A DNA stretch of 64,000 nt, from the NCBI RefSeq assembly GCF_026013545.1, contig NZ_JAPDOG010000003.1:248001-312000 (forward strand), written 5' to 3'. The stretch comes from Defluviimonas salinarum. Lineage in GTDB: Bacteria > Pseudomonadota > Alphaproteobacteria > Rhodobacterales > Rhodobacteraceae. The stretch's first letter is position 1, and every line of letters starts with the position of its first letter. Positions 59,743 through 64,000 of this stretch are shown one piece after another. The translations under genes and the position numbers were made by a program. The notes below the pieces were generated by a model, which was not told where the DNA came from, made no database searches, and saw only the letters and a list, made by a program, of their open reading frames with translations.

Positions 59743-60702
59743 ATGCAAGGAGACCTTCGGCTGTCGCTGCGCCTGCTGCGCGCCTATCTCGCCGCGACTG
59801 AGCATGGCAGCATCACCGGGGCAGCGGCGGCGCTGCATGTCGCGCCCTCGGCGGTCGCGACCGCCATCGACAAGGTCGAAGCCGAGTTCGGCACGGTTCT
59901 CGTCACCCGCAACCGTGCGAAGGGCATCGCGCCGACCACCGCCGGGCGGGCGCTGGCGGCGCGGATCAAGGCGCTTCTGGACGAATACGACGCAGTGATG
60001 TCGGAGGGTCACGCGCTCGGCGCCTCGCTCGCGGGCGACCTCCGGATCGGCTACTACGCCCCGGTCGCCCCAGCGTTCCTGCCGGAAATCCTTCAGCCGC
60101 TCATGGCCGCGAGCTCCGGCCTCAGGGTCGATCTGCGGGATTGCGACAATGACAGCGCGCAAGCCGGGCTGATCGAGGGACGGCTCGACGTGATCCTGTT
60201 CGCCGGTGGCGAGGTCCGGCCCGGCATCGAGACCGAGGCGCTTCTCGACATACCGCCCTACATCCTCGCGCCGGTCGCTCATCCGCTGGCGCTGCGGGGC
60301 GAGGCGACGCTTGCCGACCTGAACGGCGCGGATCTGGTGCTGCTCGACCTGCCGCTTGCCGGAGCATATACGCGGCGGCTCCTCGAGACGGGCGGGATTG
60401 CCCCCCGGATCGTCGCGACGTCATCCTCGACGGAAATGATCCGCAGCCTTGTCGGCGCGGGGACCGGACTCGCGGTTCTCAACATGCGGCCGAGGACAAG
60501 GTCCAGCTATGGCGGCGCCGAGCTCGCGGAGGTGCCGTTGCGGCCGCCGCTGCCGGGTCTGACGCTGATGGCGGGGCGGCTGGCAGGCCGCCCGCGCCGC
60601 GCCGTCACCGTGTTCCTGGACGCCGTCCGCGCCTGGTTCGCCGGTCCGCAGGCGGCAGAGCTCGTGGTGCGCGAGACCGGCGCTCAGGCCCCGAGGCAGT
60701 AG
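59743..60702 (+). CDS. LysR-family transcriptional regulator
   Basis: 319 residues. HTH at about residues 20-42 ([20 protein letters not shown]), then a LysR effector domain with [17 protein letters not shown] and [10 protein letters not shown]. It likely controls the divergent sterol-desaturase-type gene. The 3' end overlaps argF on the other strand by 19 bp (60684-60702). Confidence 0.87.
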
Positions 60703-61610
60703 CGCAGGATCGCCTTCTGGGCGTGAAGCCGGTTCTCGCTCTCGTCGAAGATCACCGATTGCGGGCCGTCCATCACCTCGCTCGTCGCCTCCTCGTTGCG
60801 GTGCGCCGGCAGGCAATGCATGAAGAGCGCGTCGGGCTTGCCCTCTCCCATCATCTGCGCGTTGACCTGGTAGGGGCGAAGCTGGTTGTGCCGCCGCTCC
60901 CGGGCGCTTTCGGGATCGTGCATCGAGACCCACGTATCGGTGACGATCGCATCGGCACCCTCGGCCGCGACAAGCGGGTCGCGGTGGATCTCGACGGTCG
61001 AGCCCCTGGAGCGGGCGAAGGCGACCGCCTTCGGATCGGGATCGAGCGTCTCGGGGCCGGTGAAGGTGAGGTCGAAGCCGAACTGGCCGGCGGCGTGGAG
61101 CCAGCTCGAGCAGACGTTGTTGCCGTCGCCCGACCAGACGAACTTGCGGCCCGCGATCGGCCCGCGATGCTCCTCGTAGGTGACGATGTCGGCCATGATC
61201 TGGCAGGGATGCGACGAGTCGGTGAGCCCGTTGATCACCGGCACGGTCGCGTGTTCGGCCATCTCCAGAAGCGTCGCCTCCTCGAAGGTGCGCAGCATGA
61301 TCAGGTCGACATAGCGTGACAGGACCCGCGCGGTATCGGCGATCGATTCGCCGTGGCCGAGCTGCATCTCCTTGCCCGAGAGCACCATCGTCTCGGCCCC
61401 CATCTGGCGGGCGCCGACATCGAAGGAAACGCGGGTCCGGGTCGAGGGCTTCTCGAAGATCAGCGCGATCATGCGCCCCGAAAGCGGCGTCGCGTCATCG
61501 GCCATGCCCTTGGGGCGGTTGTTGCGCGCGTCCTTCATCGCGCGGGCCTGGTCGATCATCGCCCGCAAGTCGGATGGCGAGGTCTTGTGGATGTCGAGGA
61601 AATGGTTCAT
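60684..61610 (-). CDS. argF: Ornithine carbamoyltransferase ArgF
   Basis: 308 residues. Carbamoyl phosphate site STRTR in [15 protein letters not shown], then HPCQIMAD, and the ornithine-binding HCLP in [12 protein letters not shown]. It makes citrulline from ornithine and carbamoyl phosphate. It follows argD on the same strand with repeat copy C in the 61-bp gap, so the two are probably one operon with partial termination between. Confidence 0.96.
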
Positions 61611-61633: not shown

Positions 61634-61685
61634 GCCGGGGGCTGCCTGCCCCCGGACCCCCGGGGGTATTTTCACAATGAAGAAG
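61634..61685 (-). repeat. Dispersed intergenic hairpin repeat, copy C (overlaps argD stop)
   Basis: On the minus strand: CTTCTTCATTG, then GAAAATACCCCGGGGGTCC, then a stem GCCCCCGG/CCGGGGGC with a 5-nt loop. The argD stop codon and its last codons lie inside the element. Confidence 0.75.
61635..61655 (-). terminator. Hairpin inside repeat copy C, between argD and argF
   Basis: CCGGGGGC (61635-61642) and GCCCCCGG (61648-61655) with loop TGCCT form a perfect 8-bp stem. Confidence 0.45.
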
Positions 61686-62862
61686 CGGCAGGCGCGGTTT
61701 CCAGTTCCGCCGCCGCGGCGTCGAGGCGGGTGACGGCCTCGGCGATCTCCTCGTCGGTGATCGTCAGCGGCGGCAGGAGCCGCAGCGTCTCGTCGGCGGC
61801 GGGCACGGTCAGGATCTGCCTTGCGTAGCCCGCCTTGACCACCTCGGCCGGGGCGACCTTGCACTTGAGGCCGAGCATGAGGCCCTGGCCGCGCACCCCT
61901 TCGAAGATGCCGGGATGGGCGGCGACGAGTCCTTCGAGCTTCTGGCGCAGGAGTGCCGCCTTGCGGTTGACCTCGGCGAGGAAGCCGGGGTCGGTCACGA
62001 TCTCCATGACCTTGGCCCCGACCGCGCAGGCGAGCGGGTTGCCGCCGTAGGTCGAGCCGTGGGTGCCCGCGGTCATGCCGCTGGCGGCGGCCTCGGTGGC
62101 GAGCACCGCGCCCAGGGGGAAGCCGCCGCCTATGCCCTTGGCGACCATCATGATGTCCGGGGTCACCCCCGACCATTCGTGGGCGAAGAGCCGGCCGGTG
62201 CGGGCGACGCCGCACTGCACCTCGTCAAAGATGAGAATCGCGCCGGTCTCGTCGCAGAGCTGGCGGATCGTCTTCATGTCGGCGTCCGAGAGCGGGCGGA
62301 TGCCGCCCTCGCCCTGGATCGGCTCGACCATCACGGCGCAGGTCCTGTCGCTGATCGCGGCTTTCAGCGCCGCCATGTCGGCCCAGGGCAGCTGCCGGAA
62401 GCCCGGCATCAGGGCGCCGTAGCCCTTTACCATCTTCTCCGACCCGGCGGCAGCGATGGCCCCGGTGGAGCGGCCGTGGAAGGCGCCCTCGAAGGTCAGG
62501 ATCTCCTCGCGGGGGGCACCCTTCTCGTACCAGTACTTGCGCGCCATCTTGATCGCGAGTTCCGCCGCCTCGGTGCCGGAATTGGTGAAGAAGGCGGTGT
62601 CGGCGAAGGTGTTTTCCACCAGAAGGTCGGCCAGCCTTTGCTGTTCGGGGATCTGGTAGAGGTTCGAGACATGCCAGAGCCTGCCCGCCTGTTCGGTCAG
62701 CGCCGCGACGAGGTCGGGATTGGCATGGCCGAGCGCGTTGACCGCGATCCCGGCGCCGAGGTCGAGGTATCGCGTCCCGTCGGCCTCGATGAGCCAGCTG
62801 CCCTCGCCCTTCTCGAAGGAGAGGGGCGCGCGGTTGTAGGTGGGAAGGATCGACGGGATCAT
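61672..62862 (-). CDS. argD: Acetylornithine aminotransferase ArgD
   Basis: 396 residues of PLP fold type I. The Schiff-base Lys is in [10 protein letters not shown] near residue 240, with [13 protein letters not shown] before it and [12 protein letters not shown] earlier. It converts N-acetylglutamate semialdehyde to N-acetylornithine and probably also serves lysine synthesis (succinyl-DAP). GGAG precedes the start at seven bases. The last residues (SSL) and stop are encoded by a dispersed repeat. An arginine-rich peptide is encoded about 100 bp upstream. Confidence 0.95.
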
Positions 62863-62932
62863 GGATGGACTCCGGATGGGAAGGTCAATGGGTGCCTGAG
62901 CGGGGGGCCCGAGTCAACGATGTGAAGGAGGT

Positions 62933-62945
62933 GTGGCGAGGCCAC
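62933..62945 (-). promoter_or_regulatory. Hairpin between the arginine leader and argD
   Basis: GTGGC-CTC-GCCAC (minus strand), 13 bp after the leader-peptide stop codon, followed by the pyrimidine-rich ACCTCCTTC. A candidate part of an attenuator; no long U-run follows. Confidence 0.4.
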
Positions 62946-62958
62946 CGGGTGACGGACG

Positions 62959-63015
62959 TCAGGCGCGGGTGCGGCGGCGTCGGGGACGGGCAAAGGCTTG
63001 GGTCCGGTGCGTCAT
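62959..63015 (-). CDS. Arginine-rich leader peptide upstream of argD-argF
   Basis: An 18-codon frame, MTHRTQAFARPRRRRTRA then TGA. Seven of 18 codons are Arg, in order CGG, CGT, CGA, CGC, CGC, CGC, CGC. It ends 96 bp before the argD start. A promoter (TGGACA-N17-TATGCG) is positioned so that transcription would begin at or within a few bases of this ATG, giving a leaderless message, as known for the trpL leader of Sinorhizobium. Ribosome stalling at Arg codons when Arg-tRNA is scarce is the expected sensor. An ATG four codons upstream (63027) overlaps the -10 hexamer and is less likely. Confidence 0.62.
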   Translation of the reverse strand: MTHRTQAFARPRRRRTRA

Positions 63016-63022
63016 GGCCCGC

Positions 63023-63051
63023 CGCATAGCGGCTAAACCCGCGCCTGTCCA
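63023..63051 (-). promoter_or_regulatory. Promoter of the arginine leader/argD transcript
   Basis: Minus strand TGGACA (63051-63046), 17-bp spacer, TATGCG (63028-63023). The predicted start site, 5-8 nt further, includes the A of the leader ATG at 63015. Confidence 0.5.
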
Positions 63052-63121
63052 CCGAAACCTTCGGCCGCCGCGTTCCGCCCCCGTTTGTGCTACCATCGCC
63101 CGATCAAGGGGAGAGGAACGC

Positions 63122-64000
63122 ATGAAGGTCAGCATCGTCCAGGAGCCGCCGGTCTATCTCGATATTGAGCGATCGCTCGAGCGGGCCGTTTCGCTGATCG
63201 GCGCGGCCGCGGCCGGCGGGGCGGAGATGGTGGTCTTTCCCGAGGTCTGGCTGCCGGGCTACCCGACCTTCGTCTGGCGGCTCCTGCCCGGGCGCGGCAT
63301 GGCGGCGACGGATGCGCTTTTCCGCCTGTCGCAGGCCAATTCGGTCGATCTGTCGCGCGACGGGCTGCGCCCCGTCCGAGAGGCCGCCCGCGAGCACGGC
63401 GTCGTGGTCGTGATGGGCCACCAGGAGATCGACGGCCGGTTCAGCGGCAGCACGCTCTTCAACAGCTGCGCCATCATCGACGCCGACGGCACGCTTCGCA
63501 ACAACCACCGCAAGCTGATGCCGACCAATCCCGAGCGCATGGTCTGGGGCAGCGGCGACGGCCAGGGCCTGCGGGTGGTGCCGACCGCCGTCGGCCGCGT
63601 CGGCGCGCTGATCTGCTGGGAGAACTACATGCCGCTCGCGCGGTTCGCGCTCTATGCCCAGAACCTCGACATCTATGTCGCGCCGACCTGGGACAGCGGG
63701 CCGACCTGGCTGGCCACGATGCAGCACATCGCGCGCGAGGGCGGCGTCTGGGTCATCGGCTGCGCCACCGCCATCGAGGCGGCGGACATCCCCGCCGATC
63801 TGCCCCACCGCGACGAGATCTTTCCCGACCCCGGCGAGTGGATCAATCCCGGTGATGCGGTCGTCTACCAGCCCTTCGGCGGCGTGGAGGCCGGCCCGAT
63901 GCATGCCGAGAAGGGCCTCCTCTCGGCCGAGATCGACGTCGCGCGCGCCCGCGCGTCACGGCGCAAGTTCGACGTGGCGGGCCATTACGCGCGTCCCGAC
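63122..64000 (+). CDS. Nitrilase family carbon-nitrogen hydrolase (3' truncated)
   Basis: 293 residues are visible and the frame is open at the window end. The catalytic triad is E41 (VVFPEVWLPGYP), K131 (NNHRKLMPTNPE) and C165 (ALICWENYMP). The CWEN context is that of true nitrilases, which turn nitriles into carboxylic acids and ammonia, rather than amidases. GGGAGAGG precedes the ATG. Divergent from argD; the 259-bp gap between them contains the arginine leader. Substrate unknown. Confidence 0.9.
   Translation, partial: MKVSIVQEPPVYLDIERSLERAVSLIGAAAAGGAEMVVFPEVWLPGYPTFVWRLLPGRGMAATDALFRLSQANSVDLSRDGLRPVREAAREHGVVVVMGHQEIDGRFSGSTLFNSCAIIDADGTLRNNHRKLMPTNPERMVWGSGDGQGLRVVPTAVGRVGALICWENYMPLARFALYAQNLDIYVAPTWDSGPTWLATMQHIAREGGVWVIGCATAIEAADIPADLPHRDEIFPDPGEWINPGDAVVYQPFGGVEAGPMHAEKGLLSAEIDVARARASRRKFDVAGHYARPD

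Follow-up and report, generated by a model that had tools for sequence, protein, structure and literature searches.

A short arginine-rich leader frame conserved ahead of argD-argF in Rhodobacteraceae, a candidate arginine-responsive attenuator

The argD and argF genes of Defluviimonas salinarum are preceded by a very short arginine-rich frame that recurs in most of the relatives examined, and we read this frame, with a probability of roughly 0.6, as the leader of an arginine-responsive, ribosome-mediated attenuator. That the leader senses arginine-tRNA is, as a separate claim, highly probable. If the reading is correct, a tiny arginine-rich gene senses arginine shortage through its translation and switches on argD-argF, which would reveal control of these genes at the RNA level in Rhodobacteraceae. 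In the open literature that was searched, outside of which most subscription papers lie, we found no arginine attenuator placed before an alphaproteobacterial arginine biosynthesis operon.

The frame (hereafter the uORF) lies on the minus strand of the window, the whole 64,000-nucleotide stretch of DNA that was analysed, where it reads MTHRTQAFARPRRRRTRA from 63015 to 62959, with its stop after codon 18 and 96 bases between its end and the argD start. Seven of its codons specify arginine, in four kinds (CGG, CGT, CGA and CGC), and six of the seven fall within the last nine codons, including the run CGA CGC CGC CGC (62971-62982). The leader promoter P1 consists of a -35 element TGGACA (63051-63046), a spacer of 17 bases and a -10 element TATGCG (63028-63023), with seven further bases before the ATG. 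Past the uORF on the same strand lie a hairpin H2 (GTGGC-CTC-GCCAC, 62933-62945), identified from the sequence and its fold and followed by no U-run, the argD Shine-Dalgarno sequence GGAG (62870-62873), argD (61672-62862, 396 aa) and argF (60684-61610, 308 aa), the last two named from their sequences as acetylornithine aminotransferase and ornithine carbamoyltransferase. An initial annotation of this DNA had described the 18-codon frame with its seven arginine codons, the promoter and the hairpin, all of which prove exact on re-reading. On the plus strand, a divergent nitrilase-like gene (MKVSIVQEPP..., judged by eye; 62933-64000) starts about 70 bases past the leader promoter, and its longest open frame crosses the uORF in antisense.

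For comparison, argD was taken from 22 genomes of the host's genus and from the best 80 named genome contigs (the first 102 loci), and the sample was extended to 134 loci by two more family members from a class-wide sample and by the 30 members with the most divergent argD. The family is called Rhodobacteraceae on the strength of the titles of the named contigs. Some of these loci come from the same genomes, and identical sequences were counted once. All 292 genomes of an order-wide sample belong to one family; the outgroup comprises 67 argD upstream regions (27 and 40) of other families of the class, taken from 66 out of 104 matching non-family genomes. In 119 of the 134 family loci, and in all 27 outgroup loci tested, argD is followed within 500 bases by an argF relative.

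The initial annotation had made its reading depend on conservation of the frame in relatives, and the arginine-run frame is indeed kept, with synonymous drift, across the 80 distinct uORFs found among the first 102 loci. A uORF with an arginine run near its stop is called in 118 of the 134 loci, nine of these calls being low-scoring, and 16 loci give no call; the 30 members with divergent argD divide into 16 with a call, of which two are doubtful, and 14 without. The doubtful calls overall are L163, L165, L018 and L079. Under a strict test that demands an ATG, 9-25 codons and RRR within the final eight residues, 89 of 126 distinct family regions contain the frame and 73 contain it together with the promoter spacing. 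The corresponding counts are 1 and 0 of 67 in the outgroup, 15 and 1 of 2,520 in dinucleotide shuffles, and 7 and 0 of 1,068 in argD-coding windows. When only the promoter is used to locate the ATG and only the motif CGACGNCG to locate the run, and thus without use of the frame, all 74 qualifying distinct loci have a distance between the two that is divisible by three, across seven lengths. Such agreement would be hard to obtain without selection on the frame, though related genomes are not independent. The preservation of the frame while the spacing varies supports the earlier proposal that argD-argF may be controlled by ribosome-mediated attenuation sensing arginine.

The uORF ranges from 10 to 25 codons and its peptide shows little conservation beyond the run, which makes it very improbable that the product is a small peptide acting in trans, or that the leader is chiefly an sRNA, with arginine incidental. 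Sinorhizobium trpL is reported to yield both an attenuator-derived sRNA and a peptide (PMC10117765), a precedent for such a role. A further point against it is that no recurrent arginine-run uORF is found ahead of argG (21 loci), argC (15), argS (21) or carA (20) in the genus, where only isolated arginine-rich frames occur (L257, L283 and L308). In this survey the gene starts were set by a rough rule, with no usable start in L276 and L328 and at least five that look misplaced (L263, L267, L281, L288 and L289), and seven weaker argC-like loci were omitted.

The position of the promoter suggests that the uORF mRNA is leaderless, with the RNA starting at the A of the AUG. The distance from the uORF ATG to the -35 triad and to the TA of the -10 element is nearly constant across the 80 distinct loci: T is found at -35 in 63 loci, A at -11 in 49 and T at -12 in 42, with a spacing that differs by about one base among loci, and C precedes the A of the ATG at -1 in 65. 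A Shine-Dalgarno-like motif 5-17 bases 5' of the uORF is seen in 12 of 110 distinct loci, as against 105 of 110 ahead of argD. A -10 element without T at -7 is reported to be common in alphaproteobacterial promoters (PMC8407463), and both S. meliloti and R. sphaeroides are reported to have leaderless transcripts (PMC3616915). A variant uORF, MIKFEHILRLRRRR, upstream of argD in L155 has an AAAGGAG Shine-Dalgarno sequence before its ATG and a shifted promoter, and is therefore probably not leaderless.

The choice of codons within the run is strongly biased. The 375 arginine codons in the runs of 107 distinct uORFs comprise 193 CGC, 155 CGA, 24 CGT and 3 CGG, with no AGA or AGG, whereas the arginine codons of the argD genes at the same loci include 26.7% CGG, 6.5% CGA and 4.3% AGG and AGA together. 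The tRNA-Arg genes found in the host assembly carry the anticodons ACG, CCG, TCT and CCT, and none carries TCG (79 matches above the cut-off, of which nine of 81-87 bases were not read). Anticodon ACG, as ICG, decodes CGU, CGC and CGA, and CCG decodes CGG; the run is therefore served almost wholly by one tRNA, tRNA-Arg(ICG), and in the window by this tRNA throughout. In 100 of the 107 distinct uORFs the run opens with CGA, the codon that tRNA-Arg(ICG) reads worst. Base pairing of the run with the segment past the stop (H1, below) does not by itself explain this preference, since the codon is still CGA in 48 of the 51 cases where the best H1 duplex begins later. The bias is absent from the initial annotation and is new here, as are the start-codon pairing P0 and the TTGAC block described below.

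These codons bear directly on the possibility that arginine residues in the exit tunnel, perhaps together with free arginine, stall the ribosome whatever the codons. Fungal arginine attenuator peptides work by nascent-peptide arrest of this sort, and the placement of the run, which in 115 of 117 loci (duplicates included) begins 2-8 codons short of the stop, would suit it. Since CGG (3 of 375) together with AGA and AGG (none) make up about 31% of the arginine codons in argD, selection has acted on codons and not on residues only, and this, with the wide variability of the residues preceding the run, leaves peptide arrest improbable. The bias also offers a clean test of tRNA charging versus peptide arrest, because CGG and CGC/CGA give the same peptide through different tRNAs.

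Two pairings between the uORF and the segment past its stop are supported by covariation across the family. In each comparison the best duplex between two segments of the same leader was scored against duplexes with partners swapped between leaders; the tests of P0 and H1 omit loci with fewer than 25 bases behind the stop, which leaves 108 (117 before removal of duplicates). For P0, which joins uORF nucleotides 1-10 to the 40 bases past the stop, the own score is 12.75 and the swapped score 10.70 (sd 0.19, z 11), or 10.75 when partners are swapped among close relatives (>75% argD identity; 99 of the 108 loci had such relatives), and 77 of the 108 loci have an own score above the swapped median. 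H1, which joins the arginine run to the same 40 bases, scores 13.29 against 12.50 (z 5.3). The control pairings give z 2.0 (uORF nucleotides 11-20 with the post-stop segment), 0.6 (the stretch 5' of the promoter) and 1.5 (uORF nucleotides 1-10 with the rest of the leader). Pruning to 44 representatives of <78% identity leaves P0 at z 6.6 (0 of 2,000 permutations) and H1 at z 3.4 (2 of 2,000). P0 helices of at least 5 bp begin in the first five bases in 76 of 108 loci, and both arms change together, as in GATCAAAC/GTTTGATC, GATCAAT/ATTGATC, GATCGC/GCGATC, ATGACC/GGTCAT, ATGAAC/GTTCAT and ATGAAGATG/CATCTTCAT. Comparison of the leader sequences thus shows family-wide covarying pairs that would link both the start codon (P0) and the arginine codons (H1) to the post-stop segment. 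Both pairings are possible with the H1 arm ahead of the P0 arm in 70 of 110 loci; in 31 of the 70 the two arms lie end to end or almost end to end (gap -1 to 1), an adjacency given without a chance control.

The window can be fitted to this pattern. Its 3' strand, CGUC-CGUCA, can pair with GACG of the arginine run (H1: 62978-62981 with CGUC at 62955-62958, immediately past the stop) and with UGACG overlapping the start codon (P0: 63010-63014 with CGUCA at 62950-62954, abutting the H1 arm). These assignments apply the family pattern to duplexes available in the window, and they differ from its predicted fold: the minimum-energy structure contains H2, and P0, which is short in the window, and H1 as drawn are absent from it. 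Instead, CGUUG of the TTGAC block is the partner of the arginine run, and a local UGAC-GUCC-GUCA hairpin takes up the P0 3' arm; for the first 18 bases the strongest duplex in the window is CACCGG/CCGGUG, whose position overlaps that of H2. Predicted folds of other members contain H1 (for example L005, L064 and L075) or P0 (L102, L106, L110 and L114). Free-energy z-scores from the arginine run to the post-stop segment average about 0 and are thus not unusual, and folds of 16 loci with the 5' part blocked as by a stalled ribosome reveal no common alternative by eye. None of the 4227 Rfam families has a covariance-model match to window positions 62600-63300 up to an E of 5.

The covarying pairs around the uORF would also suit control after transcription, in which translation of the uORF or stalling on it makes the leader RNA more or less stable or the argD start more or less accessible. 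In Salmonella orf34-speF, RNase G and the accessibility of the speF start are reported to account for part of the control (PMC6386406), and the mycobacterial leaderless poly-Cys leaders are described as acting on translation (PMC9031893, PMC13236596). The argD gene has a Shine-Dalgarno-like motif of its own in nearly all loci, however, and pairing of the post-stop segment with the argD Shine-Dalgarno and start region shows no own-pair excess (z -1.7), so that we regard this explanation as rather unlikely.

With regard to how transcription would be stopped, 12 of 110 leaders carry a hairpin followed by a T-run, where mononucleotide shuffles lead one to expect 6.5, and the region of the window is not among the 12. 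A U-run intrinsic terminator was accordingly rejected as the general mechanism. The initial annotation had noted the want of a long U-run and supposed that the switch may act through Rho or translation instead; the missing U-run is borne out, and the composition of the leader fits the guess about Rho. Past the uORF, C exceeds G in all 109 distinct leaders (C 0.41, G 0.23), which in the window marks 62883-62958, running from the uORF stop in the direction of argD, as a proposed Rho loading region. The uORF itself is skewed towards C alike (106 of 107). C exceeds G in 40 of 67 argD upstream regions of other families of the class, more weakly in 12 of the 16 family loci without a uORF, and, within the window, at 8 of 15 gene starts (7 of 14 with argD removed). 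A C-rich, G-poor skew favours Rho loading. Given how few leaders have a U-run terminator, and given their excess of C over G, we infer that Rho is the preferred terminator, a choice held at about even odds; the skew is compatible with Rho and is not proof of it.

A classical attenuator, in which arginine-tRNA sensing chooses between H1/P0 and an intrinsic terminator (H2 or a hairpin near the TTGAC block), with weak U-tracts sufficing in GC-rich genomes, has more in its favour than control after transcription and is still unlikely. Hairpins behind the uORF exceed those of mononucleotide shuffles with a mean z of 0.98 (98 regions; 29 rank in the top few), and the best hairpin begins 13-14 bases past the stop in 32 of the 98, mostly close relatives of the host. 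Some of the 12 hairpins with T-runs, mostly from lower-GC members, look convincing, and those behind the uORF in L145, L164, L102 and L081 resemble intrinsic terminators, so that the type of terminator may differ between lineages. The cysS leader of the same order also has a U-run terminator, as reported (PMC8632094). Against this reading stand the count of hairpins with T-runs given above, which leaves out the window, and the absence of a conserved antiterminator pairing, the arginine run showing no own-pair excess with the rest of the leader (z -1.1).

Attenuation by way of Rho would proceed as follows. RNA polymerase would begin at the A of the uORF AUG, so that a 70S ribosome would load on the bare 5' end and translate as far as the arginine run. 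When tRNA-Arg(ICG), which serves nearly all of the run's codons, is charged, the ribosome would complete the uORF and leave; the C-rich, G-poor leader would then be naked and transcription would terminate, most likely by Rho, giving little argD-argF. When the tRNA is uncharged, the ribosome would remain parked on the run, near the end of the uORF, holding H1 open and covering the middle of the C-rich stretch, and the polymerase would read on. P0, in which the start codon and the bases following it pair with the post-stop segment, would close the leaderless start once that segment has been transcribed, and the decision would therefore fall to the one early-loaded ribosome.

In its full form this proposal is a sensor read by a single ribosome: the post-stop segment pairs with both the arginine codons and the start codon, only a ribosome loaded before that segment is transcribed can read the leader, and each transcript makes one decision, by Rho and without a U-run, on a single isoacceptor, in much of Rhodobacteraceae. 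We put the full combination forward tentatively, as somewhat less probable than Rho termination taken alone. If it holds, P0 represents a testable design principle for leaderless attenuators, in which closing the 5' AUG limits sensing to one early ribosome.

A further conserved element lies between the uORF and argD. The sequence TTGAC is present there in 65 of 80 distinct loci, mostly 55 bases 5' of argD (62913-62917 on the minus strand of the window), and is followed about 17 bases on by GGCAC; the 15 loci that lack it are mostly Paracoccus. By eye, a similarly placed TTGAC is visible in family members that lack the uORF (L151, L154, L160, L161 and L166) and in some outgroup regions, and in some of these an ordinary -10 element comes after it (uncounted). 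Relatives that lack the uORF may have it as their sole argD promoter. The block is thus probably the -35 element of an ancestral argD promoter, retained as a weak internal one (P2). Such a block could supply argD independently of the leader, which counts against the attenuator reading. A sigma-54 reading of the TTGGCAC block was rejected, its spacing being one base short by hand count.

Among known systems, the nearest precedents, by analogy, appear to be the Rhodobacterales cysS leader, the mycobacterial leaderless poly-Cys leaders and Salmonella orf34. Like the trp, his and leu leaders, the argD leader contains a short ORF rich in codons for the end product, as judged from sequence conservation; it is not filed with them as a classical attenuator, because the defining pair of mutually exclusive antiterminator and terminator was sought, in the swap tests and, for terminators, in 110 leaders, and was not found. 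The cysS leader uORFC-8-2 is reported from the same order and predicted, by comparison, to act by ribosome-mediated attenuation, with a conserved AUG of a short uORF and tandem Cys codons within its first stem (PMC8632094). It is described as sensing Cys for a tRNA synthetase, and its consensus ends in a U run resembling an intrinsic terminator (PMC8632094). The argD leader lacks the tandem Cys codons and the cysS gene that define that family and, in the window, its U-run terminator stem as well: it has arginine codons, a biosynthetic operon, mostly no U-run, a start codon paired in P0 and a C-rich leader.

The mycobacterial short ORFs are leaderless and poly-Cys (Canestrari 2020, as cited in PMC9031893 and PMC13236596), and Cys leader peptides predicted in mycobacteria in 2005 are reported to have the run near the stop and no conserved terminator, with Rho suggested (PMC1262725). 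The argD leader resembles them in its probably leaderless uORF, in a run of codons for one amino acid near the stop and in expression that would be tied to that amino acid. They differ in belonging to another phylum, in using Cys instead of Arg and in being described as controls of translation, and the portions of PMC9031893 and PMC13236596 drawn on here do not mention a start-codon helix.

In Salmonella orf34-speF, consecutive arginine codons in a uORF are reported to sense arginine, with Rho and a post-stop hairpin involved (PMC6386406). That system controls ornithine decarboxylase and not arginine synthesis, from a 34-codon ORF in a long leader whose conserved DUF2618 peptide has its RR at codons 12-13, and includes decay by RNase G; rare and frequent arginine codons are reported to have worked alike (PMC6386406). 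The HIRRTxHIMM core of speFL/orf34 and a 34-codon ORF before speF are not found at argD, where both sequence and gene context differ.

Less close parallels come from three other leaders. The Sinorhizobium meliloti duf1127 uORF is likewise alphaproteobacterial and has C-rich codons, masked by the ribosome or by start-region pairing, that form a presumed element of Rho attenuation; it has a ribosome binding site, and the signal proposed for it is the availability of ribosomes and the efficiency of translation (tetracycline) instead of an amino acid (PMC12218461). Sinorhizobium trpL/rnTrpL is reported as a leaderless leader peptide gene whose mRNA begins at the AUG ahead of a biosynthetic gene, with Trp, trpE and 14 codons in place of the features seen here (PMC10117765). 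Pseudomonas aeruginosa carA has a leader peptide before a gene of arginine and pyrimidine synthesis, and attenuation has been suggested for it, although this organism is a gammaproteobacterium and the attenuation is tied to pyrimidines (PMC4997734).

We further note an unusual group of tRNA genes in the host assembly. On contig C6 (L242, 20800-34100) ARAGORN lists 36 tRNA genes within 13 kb, covering most amino acids, along with one unlikely tmRNA, and the GC content is 65% compared with 69% in the window. The array may have come from a plasmid, a phage or a contaminant.
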